Of a DNA stretch of 64,000 nucleotides, positions 57,574-64,000 are shown piece by piece. Within the stretch, counting starts at the first letter, position 1. Each line of letters starts with the position of its first letter. The stretch spans positions 45,950-109,949 of the forward strand of contig JAGNKU010000016.1 of the NCBI GenBank assembly GCA_017999985.1. The letters run 5' to 3'. The position numbers were made by a program, and so were the translations under genes. The DNA is from Phycisphaerae bacterium (GTDB taxonomy: Bacteria > Planctomycetota > Phycisphaerae > UBA1845 > Fen-1342). The notes beneath the pieces were generated by a model. The model was not told the origin of the DNA and did no database searches. It saw only the letters and a program-made list of their open reading frames with translations.

Positions 57574-57676
57574 GAATGTGGCGGACCACCTCCTCCTGGA
57601 GTCCGGCTGAGCCGGCCGCGCGGGGAGACGTTTCGCACGGGTGCCAACGACCGAAACCTGCACAAGGGGTACTGAC

Positions 57677-60600
57677 GTGAATCGGTGTGTCTGCGAAGCG
57701 GCGCGGGGTGTGTTCGTGACGTGCGTCGGCCTGGTCCTGCTGAGCGCGGCGTGCCCGGCGCTGGGTCAGCTCTCCAGCGACGACATCGCCGCCTTGCGTG
57801 CGCGGGGTGAGCGTGAGGGCTGGACATTCACGGTCGGCGAAAGTGAGGCGACGGCCATCCCGCTGGAGCAGTTGTGCGGGGCCGTGGAGCCGCCCGGCTG
57901 GCGCGAGAACGCGAAGTTTGATGCCCGCGCGGCCGGCCGGAGCCTGCCGAACAAGTGGGATTGGCGCTCGCACATCACAGGCTACCCCGCTATTCGGAAC
58001 CAGCTCGACTGCGGAAGTTGCTGGGCGTTCGCGGCCGTCGGTGCCATGGAGTGGGCGCTGGCTCGCGAGGCCGGGCTTTCCAGGGACCTCTCCGAGCAAT
58101 GGCTGGTGAGCTGCAACCGGGATGGCATGGGCTGCAACGGCGGCTGGCACACCACGGCGCTGAACTACCTGACCTGCGGTGGCAGCACGGACCCGTGCGG
58201 CGGAACCGGTGCTGTGCTGGAATCCGCGTTCCCCTACGTGGGCTGGGGCGCGACCTGTAATTGCCCTTACGCGCACCCGTACTGCCTGAATTCGTGGTTC
58301 ATGGTCGGCACCGAGTACGGGGTGCCCTCGGTGGACCAGATCAAGCAGGCCATCTACGACCACGGCCCGGTCGCAGTCGCGATTTACGTCAACAACGCGT
58401 TTCAGGCCTATCGTTCCGGCATCTTCAACGCGTGCGAGTCGAGCCCGCCGAACCACGCGGTCATGCTCGTCGGCTGGGATGATACTCAAGGCACCAGCGG
58501 CGTCTGGATTCTGCGCAACCAGTGGGGCACGAGCTGGGGTGAGCAGGGCTACATGCGCATCGCCTACGGCTGCAGCCGTGTCGGCTATGCGACGGCCTAC
58601 GTGAACTACCACGCCCCGGACTGCAACGGCAACAACATCCCGGACAGTCAGGACATCGACGGCGGCACGAGCCTCGACTGTAACGCCAACGAGGTGCCCG
58701 ACGAATGCGAACCCGGCGGCACCGTCGACTGCAACCAGAACGGCGTGTCCGACCTCTGTGACATCCACATTGGCACCGGCGCGGATTGCGACGCCAACGG
58801 CGTGCTCGACCAGTGCGACATCGCAAGTGGGGCGGGTCAGGACTGCAACGCCAACGGCACGCTCGACGCCTGCGAGTTCAACGCCGCTTATCACCTGGAT
58901 GACGGCACCTTTGATAACGCGTGGGGCGGTGGCTACCAGCTTGAAGACATCATCTGGCTCAACCGGTTCGTGGTGAAGCCCGGCGGCCAGACTCTCGACA
59001 GCATCTCGATTGCGTGGGGCTGGATTCCCTCGGGTACACCCACGGCCTTGGCGGTCTGGCGCGACCCCAACGGCGATGGCGATCCGCACGACGCCGTCCT
59101 GCTTTGGAAGTCGACGACGCCGGTGCTGGTGAGCCAGCCCGCGACGGACATTTTCAAGACCGTTGCCATCCCGGACGTCTATGTCGGTGAGCCCGGCACC
59201 GTGTTCTTCATTGGTGCGTACACGTCGCTGACCGACGATTGGGATCGCTACCCGGCCGCGATCGACCAGTCGGTCAACCCGGGCGGGGCCTGGCTGGCCG
59301 AGGGCGACAACCTCGATAGCCTGGGGGCGAACGACCTCTACTCAATCGACGAACTGGATCCCGAAACCGGCGGCGTTTTCATGATCCGCGCCGGCTGCGT
59401 GCCGCCGGACTGCAACAACAATGGTGTCCTCGACGAGTGCGACATCAGCTCCGGCACGAGCCATGATCTCAACGGCAACGGTCTGCCCGACGACTGCGAG
59501 CCCGACTGCAACGGCAATGGTATCCCCGACGATCTCGACCTCAGCCAGGGGACCAGCGCGGACTGCAACGGCGACGCCGTTCCGGACGAGTGCCAGCCGA
59601 ACCTCGGCCCGAAGATCACGTCGCAGCCGAAGGCCGTCACGGTGTGCGTCGATCTGCCCGCGACTTTCCGCGTGGTGGCGACCGGCCTCGGCGCGCTTGC
59701 GTACCAGTGGCGCAAAGACGGCGTGCCGATCGACGGCGCGATCAGCGACACGCTGAGCTTCGCGGCCGTCACGGTGGCGGACGACGGCGCGTACACGGTC
59801 GCCGTGACCGACACCTGCGGTACTGTCGTCAGCGCCGCCGCCGTGCTCGCCGTGGGGCGGCCGATCATTGACGCGCAGCCGCAGGACCGGTCGGTGCCGG
59901 CGGGCGGGCAGGTGGAGTTCGCCGTGGCCGTGAGCGGCGGAACGGCCTTCACGTACGAGTGGCGTAAGGACGGCACGCCGATCTATGGGGCCGTCTCCGC
60001 CACGTACGCGATCAGCTTCGTCACACCGGCACACGCCGGGGTCTACGACGTTGTCATCGGCGGTTGCGGGTCGGCGCAGAGTGCGCCCGCCACGCTGACC
60101 GTTGTGCTTGCCGCGCCGGAGGCCCCGACGCCGGCGGACGGCGACGAGAAGACCCCCATCAACGTGACGCTCGCCTGGAACCCGGTCGTCGCGGCGGCCG
60201 CGTACGACGTCTGGCTCGATAGCGGCGGCGGCCTGACGTTCCGCGGGCAGTCCGCATCCACAACCTGGCCGCTGGCGGGCCTCGCCTACAGCACGACCTA
60301 CCGGTGGCGCGTCGTGGCGCGCGCGGGCGACCTCGCGACCGCCGGCCCGGTCTGGACCTTTACCACCATGCCCAAGCCCCCGGACCCGCCGGTGGCGCCC
60401 GCGCAGCCGGACCCGCCGGACGGGGCCACGGGCGTGCCCGTTGACGTCGTGCTGAGTTGGTCTGAGTGCGCCGGCACGGAGTTCTACAAGGTCCTGGTCG
60501 GCGAGGACGCGAAGCTGTCGGACGCGCGCATGGAGGCGAGCCTGCTGACGACGAGCTATACGATTGTGGGTCTGGAGCCGGCGAAGACGTATCGCTGGCG

Positions 60601-61000
60601 CATCATCGCCAAGAACAGCGCGGGCGCGACGCCCGGCCCGGTCTGGACGTTCACCACCAAGCCGGCCGATGAGGCCCCGGGCATCACGGATGAGTGCCCG
60701 GATGACCCGGATAAGACCGAGCCGGGCACCTGCGGCTGTGGTACGCCAGACGTGGATTCCGACGACGACGGCGTCATGGACTGCGTGGATAACTGCCCCG
60801 AGACGGCAAACGCGGACCAGGCCGACGCGGATACCGACGGCGTGGGCGACGTGTGCCAGGAACCTGACGATCAGTCCGGCCAGGCCCGGCCGGGCACCAC
60901 GTTCGCGTGTCCCGCGACCAGCACGGCGCTGCTCGGGTTGAGCGTCTTCGGCCTGTTCTGGACGCGCGGCGGCGCCCGCGGCCGTAGGCGGCATCGGTAG
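57677..61000 (+). CDS. Secreted papain-like cysteine protease with repeat, Ig-like and FnIII domains
   Basis: 1107 residues. Signal peptide at about 1-30. A C1-family protease domain (about 88-310): Gln109, Cys115 (CGSCWAF), His260 (NHAVMLVGW), Asn281 (RNQWGTSWGEQGY), with no clear long propeptide. Then DCNGNNIPD-type dockerin-like calcium repeats (about 316-400), a beta domain, more repeats (about 585-650), two Ig-like domains (WRKDGVPIDGA, WRKDGTPIYGA), two FnIII-like domains, a thrombospondin type 3-like stretch (DVDSDDDGVMDCVDNCPE) and a C-terminal helix plus Arg tail resembling a sorting signal. GTG start after AGGGG. Confidence 0.9.
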   Translation: MNRCVCEAARGVFVTCVGLVLLSAACPALGQLSSDDIAALRARGEREGWTFTVGESEATAIPLEQLCGAVEPPGWRENAKFDARAAGRSLPNKWDWRSHITGYPAIRNQLDCGSCWAFAAVGAMEWALAREAGLSRDLSEQWLVSCNRDGMGCNGGWHTTALNYLTCGGSTDPCGGTGAVLESAFPYVGWGATCNCPYAHPYCLNSWFMVGTEYGVPSVDQIKQAIYDHGPVAVAIYVNNAFQAYRSGIFNACESSPPNHAVMLVGWDDTQGTSGVWILRNQWGTSWGEQGYMRIAYGCSRVGYATAYVNYHAPDCNGNNIPDSQDIDGGTSLDCNANEVPDECEPGGTVDCNQNGVSDLCDIHIGTGADCDANGVLDQCDIASGAGQDCNANGTLDACEFNAAYHLDDGTFDNAWGGGYQLEDIIWLNRFVVKPGGQTLDSISIAWGWIPSGTPTALAVWRDPNGDGDPHDAVLLWKSTTPVLVSQPATDIFKTVAIPDVYVGEPGTVFFIGAYTSLTDDWDRYPAAIDQSVNPGGAWLAEGDNLDSLGANDLYSIDELDPETGGVFMIRAGCVPPDCNNNGVLDECDISSGTSHDLNGNGLPDDCEPDCNGNGIPDDLDLSQGTSADCNGDAVPDECQPNLGPKITSQPKAVTVCVDLPATFRVVATGLGALAYQWRKDGVPIDGAISDTLSFAAVTVADDGAYTVAVTDTCGTVVSAAAVLAVGRPIIDAQPQDRSVPAGGQVEFAVAVSGGTAFTYEWRKDGTPIYGAVSATYAISFVTPAHAGVYDVVIGGCGSAQSAPATLTVVLAAPEAPTPADGDEKTPINVTLAWNPVVAAAAYDVWLDSGGGLTFRGQSASTTWPLAGLAYSTTYRWRVVARAGDLATAGPVWTFTTMPKPPDPPVAPAQPDPPDGATGVPVDVVLSWSECAGTEFYKVLVGEDAKLSDARMEASLLTTSYTIVGLEPAKTYRWRIIAKNSAGATPGPVWTFTTKPADEAPGITDECPDDPDKTEPGTCGCGTPDVDSDDDGVMDCVDNCPETANADQADADTDGVGDVCQEPDDQSGQARPGTTFACPATSTALLGLSVFGLFWTRGGARGRRRHR

Positions 61001-61351: not shown

Positions 61352-62137
61352 GTGGCGCAAGTCCGTGTTCTGATCCTGCGGGCGGCCGGCATCAACTGTG
61401 ACCTCGAAACCCAGCATGCCTGGGAACTGGCCGGGGGCGTGCCGACACGCATCCATGTCCGGCAGCTCATCGAGCAGCCAAGCCAGCTCGACGACTTCCA
61501 GATCCTCACGATCCCCGGCGGATTCAGCTATGGCGACGACATCGCCGCCGGCCGTATCCTGGCCAACCAGGTCCGCCGACATCTCATCGACGGCCTGGAG
61601 CGTTTCATCGGCGCCGGTAAGCTCGTGCTCGGCATCTGCAACGGCTTCCAGGTGCTGGTGCAGACCAACATCCTGCCCTTCGGTCGGACCACGACCCGGC
61701 CGCGCCGCTGCACGATCGCCGAGAACGCGCCGGCGGGCTTCCAGGACCGCTGGGTGTACCTGCAGGCCCCCGAATCGCGGTGTGTGTTCCTCGATCCAGG
61801 ACAGGTGTACGAGATGCCCATCGCGCACGGCGAGGGCCGCGTGACGTTCGCCGGCGAAGCGGACCTCGCGGCCGTCACACAGGGAGGGCAGGTTGCGCTG
61901 ACCTACGGCCCGCCACGAGCCGGCGACGCGAACCTGCATGGTGAGCCGGCCAATCCGAACGGGAGTCAGGCGGACATCGCCGGCCTGTGTGACGCCACGG
62001 GGCGGGTGCTCGGCCTCATGCCGCACCCGGAGCGCTTTGTCACGTGGACCCAGCATCCCTGCTGGACCTCGCAACCTGCGCGTCCCTCCGGCGACGGGCT
62101 CGCGCTTTTCCGTCGGGCCGTCGCCTACTTCGCATAG
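61352..62137 (+). CDS. purQ: Phosphoribosylformylglycinamidine synthase glutaminase subunit
   Basis: 261 residues, class I glutamine amidotransferase. Supplies ammonia for FGAM synthesis in purine biosynthesis, with PurL and PurS. RAAGINCDLET at the start, oxyanion region TIPGGFSYGDD, nucleophile Cys96 (GICNGFQVL), and HPERF with catalytic His/Glu near the end. GTG start, with a moderate AGG-type ribosome-binding site. No other pur gene is beside it. Confidence 0.95.
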   Translation: MAQVRVLILRAAGINCDLETQHAWELAGGVPTRIHVRQLIEQPSQLDDFQILTIPGGFSYGDDIAAGRILANQVRRHLIDGLERFIGAGKLVLGICNGFQVLVQTNILPFGRTTTRPRRCTIAENAPAGFQDRWVYLQAPESRCVFLDPGQVYEMPIAHGEGRVTFAGEADLAAVTQGGQVALTYGPPRAGDANLHGEPANPNGSQADIAGLCDATGRVLGLMPHPERFVTWTQHPCWTSQPARPSGDGLALFRRAVAYFA

Positions 62138-62168
62138 GGTCGGGGCGAAGCTTCACGCATAACAAGCC

Positions 62169-62200
62169 GGGGAGCGCACGCGGTCGTGCATGCGCTCCCC
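62169..62200. terminator. Bidirectional terminator hairpin
   Basis: Perfect 10-bp arms GGGGAGCGCA/TGCGCTCCCC around a 12-base loop, between convergent purQ and the selenoprotein gene. Confidence 0.65.
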
Positions 62201-62231
62201 AGGTTGGGCACGTGTGGCGGGTGAACGGTTG

Positions 62232-63167
62232 CTATGAACCGGCCAGCAGCTCCACGAACGGGTTGATGTCGCGGAAGTTGAAGTCTCCGTCGCCGTTGAC
62301 ATCGCCATTGTGAATGTCGCAGTCCGGGAACAGCGTCTCGTAGGCCGTCGGGTTCGTGATTGCGAGCACGAACGGATTGATGTCCGCGAACGTGACGTCC
62401 AGATCGCAGTTCATGTCGCCGGGCACCCCCAAGGCCTCAAATGGCCACAGGTCTTTGCCGGCCTGGTAGACCTGCGCGGGGAACGCCGCCGCGGGCACTT
62501 GCGCCCACGCAATCACGCCCAGGTTGGCCTGGACCCAGGTGGCGCTGAAGGTGAGGTCCCGGGATTCGTAATAGCAAGCGCCCGGCTGCAGCGTCACGTC
62601 GCTGGTGGTCGTCGCGGCGCGAAACGTGTTGCGGGAGTAGGTCGGGCTGCTGGGGAAATGGTCCTCCACGACGACCGCGTACAGCCGCACGGTCACGGGC
62701 GCGGACGCCTCTTCCAGGCAGACCCGCATCTGCAGGCGGTACGTGGTCCCGCTGACCAGGAACGCGCCGACCTGCATTGTGACCGGCGTCGGCACGGCCT
62801 GCCGCTGCACGAGTTTGGTCGCGTAGGTGTTGATGGGCCACGCGTCAAAGAGACCGTCGTACGCGAACCACGGCACGCCATCCGACCAGATGTTGTAGAA
62901 CTGTCCCCGCGCGTTGCCCCAGGTCGTGGCGTAGGCGTCGCTGACGTGATACTCGACGACCGCGAAGTTGTTGGGATACTGATTGATCAGGTTGCTGACG
63001 ACCGGACCGGCCGAAGCGCAGGTGCTTCAGCCAATCATGGTGAAATATTCGCCGAGCACCATGCGCTCGGCGCCATAGGCTCCGACCCCACAGGCCAGCA
63101 CCGCCAGCAGAACGGTTCCGCCTGCCCGCCACCCTGGCTGATGTATCGGCGCGCGTAATCCAGACAT
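62232..63167 (-). CDS. Exported thioredoxin/Omp28-like selenoprotein (UxxC) with dockerin-like tail
   Basis: 311 residues if the in-frame TGA at 63027-63029 is read as selenocysteine (residue 47). The ATG has AAGGAG 9 bases upstream. Signal peptide at about 12-33 (GGTVLLAVLACGVGAYGA), then MVLGEYFTMIG-U-STC: Sec47 and Cys50 form a UxxC redox pair at the place of the thioredoxin CxxC. Val98-Pro99 (DGVPWF) is the expected cis-Pro loop, 52 residues on. Residues about 120-240 are a beta domain as in Omp28-type proteins, and 250-311 two dockerin-like repeats (FADINPFV, FRDINPFV). No other stop occurs in the frame. Alternatives: a nonsense mutation or a sequencing error (TGC to TGA). Confidence 0.75.
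62994..63017 (-). promoter_or_regulatory. Putative bacterial SECIS element
   Basis: Stem-loop in the mRNA just after the TGA (63027-63029). Upper stem CGGCC/GGUCG (5 pairs, one G-U), apical loop GGUCC starting 18 nt after UGA, a U/UC internal bulge, then lower stem GCU/AGC. Spacing, loop size and loop GGU fit the published bacterial SECIS rules (G in the first two loop positions, 16-37 nt from UGA) and closely mirror E. coli fdhF. Confidence 0.65.
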
Positions 63168-63204
63168 ACGTTCGGCTCCTTCCTGTGTCGGTTGACTCTC
63201 GCCC

Positions 63205-63242: not shown

Positions 63243-64000
63243 CTACGGCGTAGTCAGCAAGTTCACGAACGGGTTGATGTCGCCAAAACTGACCTGCCCG
63301 TCGCTGTTGATGTCGCCATTCATGCGATTGCAGCCTGGGAACGCGCTGCCGTACGCGCCCGGATTGGTGAGCGCCAGGACGAACGGGTTGATGTCCGCGA
63401 AGCTCACGACGCCGTCGCAGTTGAGGTCGCCTGTCAACCCACCGTGCGGAATGACGCCCCAGATCTCGATGTCGTCGATATTCCAGCCGGGGTAGGTCAC
63501 CGACACGTCCGTCGGTCCCATGCTCCAGCGGAACTGCACCGTCGCCTGGTGGTCCGCTGCCGGCACCGTGTACACCTGGTGCGACCACGCCGAGTCACTG
63601 ATCGTCACTGTGTTTACCCACACCGGCGTCCACGCGGTCCCGTCGGTCGACACCTCGATACCCGCAACGTCGTACTGCTCCACGCCGAGCCAACGCCAGA
63701 ACCGCAACTGCACACCGGCGGCCGCGCTGCAATCCAGCGCGGTCGTCGTCAGGTAGCGCGCGCTCATTTCGTTCGTGTAATCGCCGGCGAGATTGAAGCC
63801 ATAGACGTTGATGCCCGTGCGACCGCTACTGGGATCCGCGTCGTGCGTGCCCGCGCCCGTCGGTTGCCCGAATGCCCACGCACCCGTCGTCGTCCAGCCC
63901 GGGTTCGTGTCCAGCGGGAAGCTGTACAGCACCTCCGGCACCCCGTAGACGTTCAGCAGCATCGTCGCGATGTTCGAGTCCCCGCCGTCCGGCGGCGTCC
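63243..64000 (-). CDS. C-terminal part of a secreted protein with dockerin-like repeats (partial)
   Basis: The open frame runs off the right edge (no stop or certain start before 64000), so only about 252 C-terminal residues are seen. They contain a MAM/jelly-roll-like beta domain (SARYLTTTALDCSAAAGVQ, LRFWRWLGVEQYDVAGIEVS, YPGWNIDDIEIWGV), then two dockerin-like repeats (GDLNCDGVVSFADINPFV and GDINSDGQVSFGDINPFV). This ending is usual for planctomycete secreted peptidases such as M14 or C25 types. The catalytic part would lie outside the window, so the enzyme class is unknown. Confidence 0.75.
   Translation of the reverse strand, partial: TPPDGGDSNIATMLLNVYGVPEVLYSFPLDTNPGWTTTGAWAFGQPTGAGTHDADPSSGRTGINVYGFNLAGDYTNEMSARYLTTTALDCSAAAGVQLRFWRWLGVEQYDVAGIEVSTDGTAWTPVWVNTVTISDSAWSHQVYTVPAADHQATVQFRWSMGPTDVSVTYPGWNIDDIEIWGVIPHGGLTGDLNCDGVVSFADINPFVLALTNPGAYGSAFPGCNRMNGDINSDGQVSFGDINPFVNLLTTP

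Follow-up and report, generated by a model that had tools for sequence, protein, structure and literature searches.

Relationship to described families

GOS_C, a family with a thioredoxin (Trx)-like fold and a UxxC motif (U being selenocysteine, Sec), dates from 2008, when 74 Sec and 312 cysteine (Cys) sequences were assigned to it, its function being given in the accessible text of the 2008 report as not known at the time (PMC2398784). Table 1 of a 2026 review, to the extent that its text is accessible, equates GOS_C with NF045500 (PMC13188914), a family that carries the NCBIfam name Omp28-related selenoprotein. The window analyzed here, i.e., the whole 64,000-nucleotide (nt) stretch of the Phycisphaerae bacterium contig JAGNKU010000016.1, contains a minus-strand gene, 62232..63167, which resembles GOS_C/NF045500 in its Trx-like fold, its UxxC motif, the occurrence of Sec/Cys pairs and the presence of a selenocysteine insertion sequence (SECIS)-like element past the UGA, as far as the accessible text of the 2008 report describes these traits (PMC2398784). 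The reading frame comprises 311 residues when TGA is taken as Sec, contains a single TGA and is otherwise open to a TAG stop. Because this frame spans a UGA that relatives mostly carry as either UGA or a Cys codon, an exported Trx-like selenoprotein is predicted, and the probability that the gene reads through the UGA as Sec by means of a SECIS located just 3' of it, its product likely being an exported Trx-like thiol-disulfide oxidoreductase, is put at roughly 90%. All features described below lie on the minus strand unless stated otherwise.

The initial annotation had called this selenoprotein undescribed, a claim that stands only in part. A similar Trx-like UxxC family has been in print since 2008, as the accessible portion of that report makes clear, while the gene itself is distant from it: the product has the Trx-like fold with UxxC that characterizes NF045500, and the NF045500 model aligns to its residues 33-223 with 29.8 bits (E 3.7e-7). 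Since this score falls far below the curated cutoff of 200, the gene is likely a new, divergent branch of an already listed selenoprotein family. NF045500 matches at E<=1e-3 were obtained for 41 of 42 branch members (best 3.9e-23) and two heme-fused sister copies scored 98.5 and 102.5 bits; none of the bit scores listed for the branch reaches 200. The dockerin-like tail that is present here goes unmentioned for GOS_C in the accessible portions of both sources (PMC2398784, PMC13188914).

Structure modelling returned a high-confidence Trx fold, and the protein as a whole is predicted to combine thioredoxin with a beta-sandwich, the model putting the Sec47-Ser-Thr-Cys50 motif where the first long helix of the Trx domain begins. 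A Trx domain joined to an Omp28-type beta-sandwich is also the arrangement of the Omp28/HBP35 structural family; the NF033782 model (Omp28 lipoprotein) gave 17.3 bits against a cutoff of 150. The nearest solved fold, that of HBP35 from Porphyromonas gingivalis (PDB 5y1a), shares 11% identity, has two cysteines where the present product has Sec-Cys, and differs in its C-terminal domain. Agrobacterium Atu2684/AGR_C_4864 (PDB 2axo), which we take to be a DUF1223 protein, is 13% identical. A literature search for Omp28 together with selenoprotein found nothing, and one for selenoprotein and dockerin found nothing beyond work on carbohydrate enzymes.

Codon 47 in related sequences

The in-frame TGA (63027..63029) occupies codon 47 and is predicted to encode the Sec of the redox motif U-S-T-C (residues 47-50; 63018..63029). 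A search of 61 related genomes gave matches in 42, many of them confined to the tail; dozens, however, span the Trx part, with one or zero internal TGA. With places sharing an identical 80-nt context around codon 47 entered once, the codon aligned to residue 47 was TGA at 30, TGC at 15, TGT at one and AGC at one of 47 distinct sites. The held-out set, drawn from an order-wide profile search and made up of 11 genomes absent from the first set and of one further locus in G010, yielded 30 TGA, six TGC, one TGT, one GGC and one TAT (39 distinct sites). One held-out locus (L169, G501:C45:6900-8400) has Cys at the usual site and was scored as TGC despite an in-frame TGA three codons downstream, a possible CxxU arrangement. 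When both sets are pooled, 60 TGA and 23 Cys codons account for 83 of 86 distinct sites, the three exceptions being AGC, GGC and TAT, and the column thus has the Sec-or-Cys composition that the initial annotation had anticipated. Upstream of the TGA, the segment R-x-V-L-x-E-x-F-T is conserved in the same frame in relatives.

The order-wide scan returned 91 matches in 32 of 114 genomes (E<=1e-20), of which 61 have one TGA and 30 have none when counted by eye, while a phylum-wide profile scan gave matches in three of 392 genomes (E<=1e-15), a spread that is perhaps understated given that six candidates were scored per genome. Among named public genomes, six of 18 loci extend to the site, five with TGA and one with TGC; five of the six carry the label Phycisphaerae or Phycisphaerales and one (L095, TGA) is labelled Thermoanaerobaculales. 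Two of the public loci (L091 and L092) resemble the copies of G021 and G002 and are therefore not independent. The identical TGA in independently assembled genomes argues against a sequencing error. The genome under study itself holds six family copies, three with TGA (the gene at 62232..63167 on C16, and copies on C3 and C2) and three with Cys (one on C3 and two on C1). At L053 (G000:C3:53000-56100), tandem paralogues carry TGA and TGC, respectively, at the same site, and both end in dockerin-like tails.

These data bear on the possibility that the TGA is a true stop, the gene being either broken or restarted at an internal GTG (62874..62876) to give a 214-residue protein. As the initial annotation had foreseen, standard calling keeps only the part after the TGA: the mechanical list of open reading frames (ORFs) retains 62232-62876, 214 residues from the GTG. 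The nearest database protein, P0002 (87% identity), is likewise 214 residues long, which is the length of the GTG-start version, as if it had been truncated at the same place. Set against this are the TGA or Cys codon in 83/86 sites, the conserved frame upstream of the TGA, the covarying hairpin described below, and the fact that a GTG start would remove the first half of the high-confidence Trx fold, such that termination at this codon appears very improbable. A reading of UGA as another amino acid, owing to a suppressor tRNA or to reassignment of the codon throughout the genome, would equally leave the frame open once TGA is sense; yet TGA terminates 24 of the 40 long ORFs retained in the window, relatives exchange TGA for Cys and hardly for anything else (3/86 exceptions), and the genome possesses a complete selenocysteine set, making this reading, if anything, even less probable than a stop.

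Predicted selenocysteine decoding and SECIS hairpin

The selenocysteine gene set of the genome is complete, comprising selA (526.5 bits; cutoff 267.9), selB (301.4; 242.25), selD (360.4; 125) and selC, i.e., tRNA-Sec (68.8; 47), for which ARAGORN reports the anticodon tca. The initial annotation had proposed a search for these four genes and had held that a lack of selB or selC would speak against Sec; both were found. The selD gene (L050, G000:C12) has its own in-frame TGA within CGGU-AGK, presumably the usual Sec place in SelD, and GGTCC at a hairpin apex about 33 nt further on. Across the 61 related genomes, tRNA-Sec and SelB accompany the family well, though not without exceptions. Neither tRNA-Sec nor SelB was found in G029, G035, G038, G039, G051 and G057, from which a family match is likewise absent; these six genomes therefore provide no test of the link between machinery and family.

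According to the accessible text of the 2026 review, the bacterial SECIS (bSECIS) model calls for a loop of 3-9 nt, a stem of 4-16 base pairs (bp), a G among the first two nucleotides of the loop, a spacing of 16-37 nt and a minimum free energy of -7.5 kcal/mol or lower (PMC13188914). The predicted upper hairpin at 62999..63013, whose GGUCC loop (63004-63008) begins 18 nt past the TGA, agrees with this model, having a loop of GGUCC or GUC, a spacing of 18-19 nt and a stem of 5-6 bp, and reaching -11.7 kcal/mol with its lower stem. The hairpin covaries. At the 30 first-set TGA sites, 92.4% of the cells of the 5-bp helix are paired, with 26 double-change cells, as compared to 71.6% and 9.2 in shuffles, while the corresponding figures for the 30 held-out TGA sites are 84.0% and 15, as compared to 73.3% and 4.9. 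Related sequences can outperform shuffles without any structure, and slid versions of the helix therefore matter as a second control; these are paired in 29-47% (first set) and 29-55% (held-out set). RNAalifold, unprompted, recovered the same helix. Moreover, the Gly codon of the loop is GGT at 28 of 30 TGA sites of the first set versus none of 17 others (Fisher p 6e-11).

The fdhF gene of E. coli, encoding formate dehydrogenase, shares GGT at codon +7 past its TGA, a codon that falls within the apical loop of its own hairpin. The protein is unrelated and the stem letters differ from those of the hairpin at 62999..63013; the known fdhF hairpin was not seen when a 37-base piece was folded in isolation.

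A number of observations weigh against Sec insertion and export. Three of the 30 TGA rows of the first set (L059, L072 and L075) were moved by one codon to bring them into register, and the third TGA copy of the genome (L055, G000:C2:107700-109700), which is perhaps decaying, reads U-A-Y-D at the motif, without the resolving Cys, and CGT instead of GGT in the loop. A tRNA-Sec match above 60 bits was found in ten of the 16 TGA-member genomes among the 61 but not in the other six (G007, G018, G019, G025, G026 and G041), two matches in G019 that barely exceed the cutoff (47.0 and 49.3 bits) being taken for other tRNAs. SelB is above its cutoff in all six; conversely, G009 and G031 possess tRNA-Sec with no SelB match above the cutoff. 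The assemblies concerned are mostly incomplete, yet completeness is put at 96% for G026 and 97% for G041, and a search of 17 genomes with the selC DNA of the studied genome gave a single 28-base match, in G041, where ARAGORN reports no tRNA. With regard to the hairpin, its core alone (-7.4 kcal/mol) falls slightly short of the model's -7.5, and a competing fold that uses the TGA itself is stronger (-23.3 once 3 nt upstream are included), although a ribosome positioned on the UGA would be expected to melt it. Loop GGT also discriminates less well among the held-out sites, being present at 27 of 30 TGA and five of nine non-TGA sites (Fisher p 0.04), where the non-TGA copies with this SECIS-like codon are perhaps recent Sec losses. 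Finally, export and surface attachment of the product are predicted from sequence alone.

The non-TGA copies at L145 (G457:C205:3100-8100), one of which has a Gly codon at the site, still carry GGT in the loop together with a hairpin that forms at most five pairs, and they may be recent Sec losses.

Proposed redox function and heme-fused sister copies

Under the proposed mechanism, SelB with Sec-tRNA would bind the GGUCC-loop hairpin, Sec would be inserted at the UGA and the protein would be exported after synthesis. Sec47 would then attack disulfides or become oxidised, Cys50 would resolve the intermediate, and disulfides of secreted or surface proteins would thereby be reduced or reshuffled, cf. 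HBP35, which reduces insulin in vitro by means of its two cysteines. Pro99 of the DGVPWF loop (62871..62873), presumably the cis-Pro position of thioredoxins, is invariant across 53 aligned sequences. A selenoprotein with a main task other than disulfide exchange, i.e., heme or metal binding like HBP35 or peroxidase activity, with Sec serving in redox sensing, could be envisaged given that HBP35 also binds hemin (PMC2907840) and that sister copies bear nine heme motifs; however, the U-x-x-C motif and the Trx fold rank among the strongest conserved features, and such a role is regarded as doubtful.

The sister copies in question were sampled as all 15 order-wide rows with frames of 815-880 residues (L172 and L173-L186). 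In each of them the Sec/Cys Trx-Omp28 domain is followed by a C-terminal block of nine CxxCH motifs at near-fixed spacing, the codon-47 site being TGA in nine and TGC in six, and the aspartate-rich (TSP3-like) repeats between the thiol domain and the heme block are conserved in an alignment of the 15. Pfam searches with two of these copies returned TSP_3, Cytochrome_C554 and doubled-CXXCH domains above their cutoffs. The genome's own heme-fused copy (L172, G000:C1:697800-701400) is a Cys form; an AlphaFold model of a cytochrome-fused copy had a predicted local distance difference test score of 44.1 and was not used. The heme fusions represent the best clue to redox partners, though they are paralogues rather than the gene at 62232..63167 itself, and they point to extracytoplasmic c-type cytochromes as a possible electron partner. 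A broader and tentative proposal is that Phycisphaerae-like planctomycetes possess multi-copy exported selenothiol modules, in which one Sec/Cys Trx-Omp28 domain may be mounted on interchangeable dockerin-like, TSP3-like or nine-heme tails, coupling external disulfide chemistry directly to an extracytoplasmic heme electron chain.

Gene layout, tail and neighbouring genes

Direct reading places the ATG start codon at 63165-63167, preceded at a distance of 8 nt by the Shine-Dalgarno-like AGGAAGGAG (63176..63184), which corresponds to the strong ribosome-binding site of the initial annotation. That annotation had located the ATG, the TGA at codon 47, Ser-Thr-Cys, DGVPWF and the terminal stop codon (TAG, 62232) correctly, and its description of a selenoprotein with a Trx/Omp28-like fold, UxxC and a dockerin-like tail is supported in each part. 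Residues 1-33 (63069..63167) resemble a signal peptide by eye, with a basic start, a hydrophobic core and small residues last, and an equivalent segment is present in the sequences of relatives. The Trx-fold domain (about residues 34-126; 62790..63068) is followed by the Omp28-like beta-sandwich domain (about residues 127-245; 62433..62789) and by the tail (residues 248-310; 62238..62426), in which direct reading reveals two D-x-N-x-D-type repeats reminiscent of dockerin type I modules.

Pfam dockerin PF00404 gave no match to the product at E<=1, and the similar tail of the neighbouring gene scored 15.3 against a cutoff of 22.9; cohesin PF00963 had no match across the genome, a search that a divergent partner might escape. 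The tail is not special to this product, as 40 within-genome matches include only six that span the Trx part, the other listed ones lying within about residues 204-311 and mostly in the tail, and as the neighbour at 63243-63998 (-) ends likewise. Its probable role is in attachment or sorting, as a module common to many exported proteins of the cell. This upstream neighbour, which is cut by the contig end, shows weak Reelin-subrepeat and MAM-like matches in addition to its dockerin-type tail. Elsewhere in the window, 57641-61000 (+) encodes a protein of 1119 residues in which papain-like protease motifs (CGSCWAFA) and repeats resembling D-x-N-x-D-type and Ig/FN3-like ones were recognized by eye. 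Between the selenoprotein gene and the convergent gene 61352-62137 (+) lies an inverted repeat (62163..62206, no strand assigned; 19-nt arms, 84% complementary), a possible shared terminator of the two.

Significance

Gene finders easily mis-call the members of this branch; P0002, having the GTG-start length, would lack the redox site. The branch offers many Sec/Cys pairs, even inside one genome, where three copies have TGA and three have Cys, plus a covarying SECIS, and constitutes a good natural system for studying when proteins outside the cytoplasm retain Sec or exchange it for Cys. A concrete, testable hint at the possible electron partners of a GOS_C-type selenoprotein comes from the copies fused to cytochromes.
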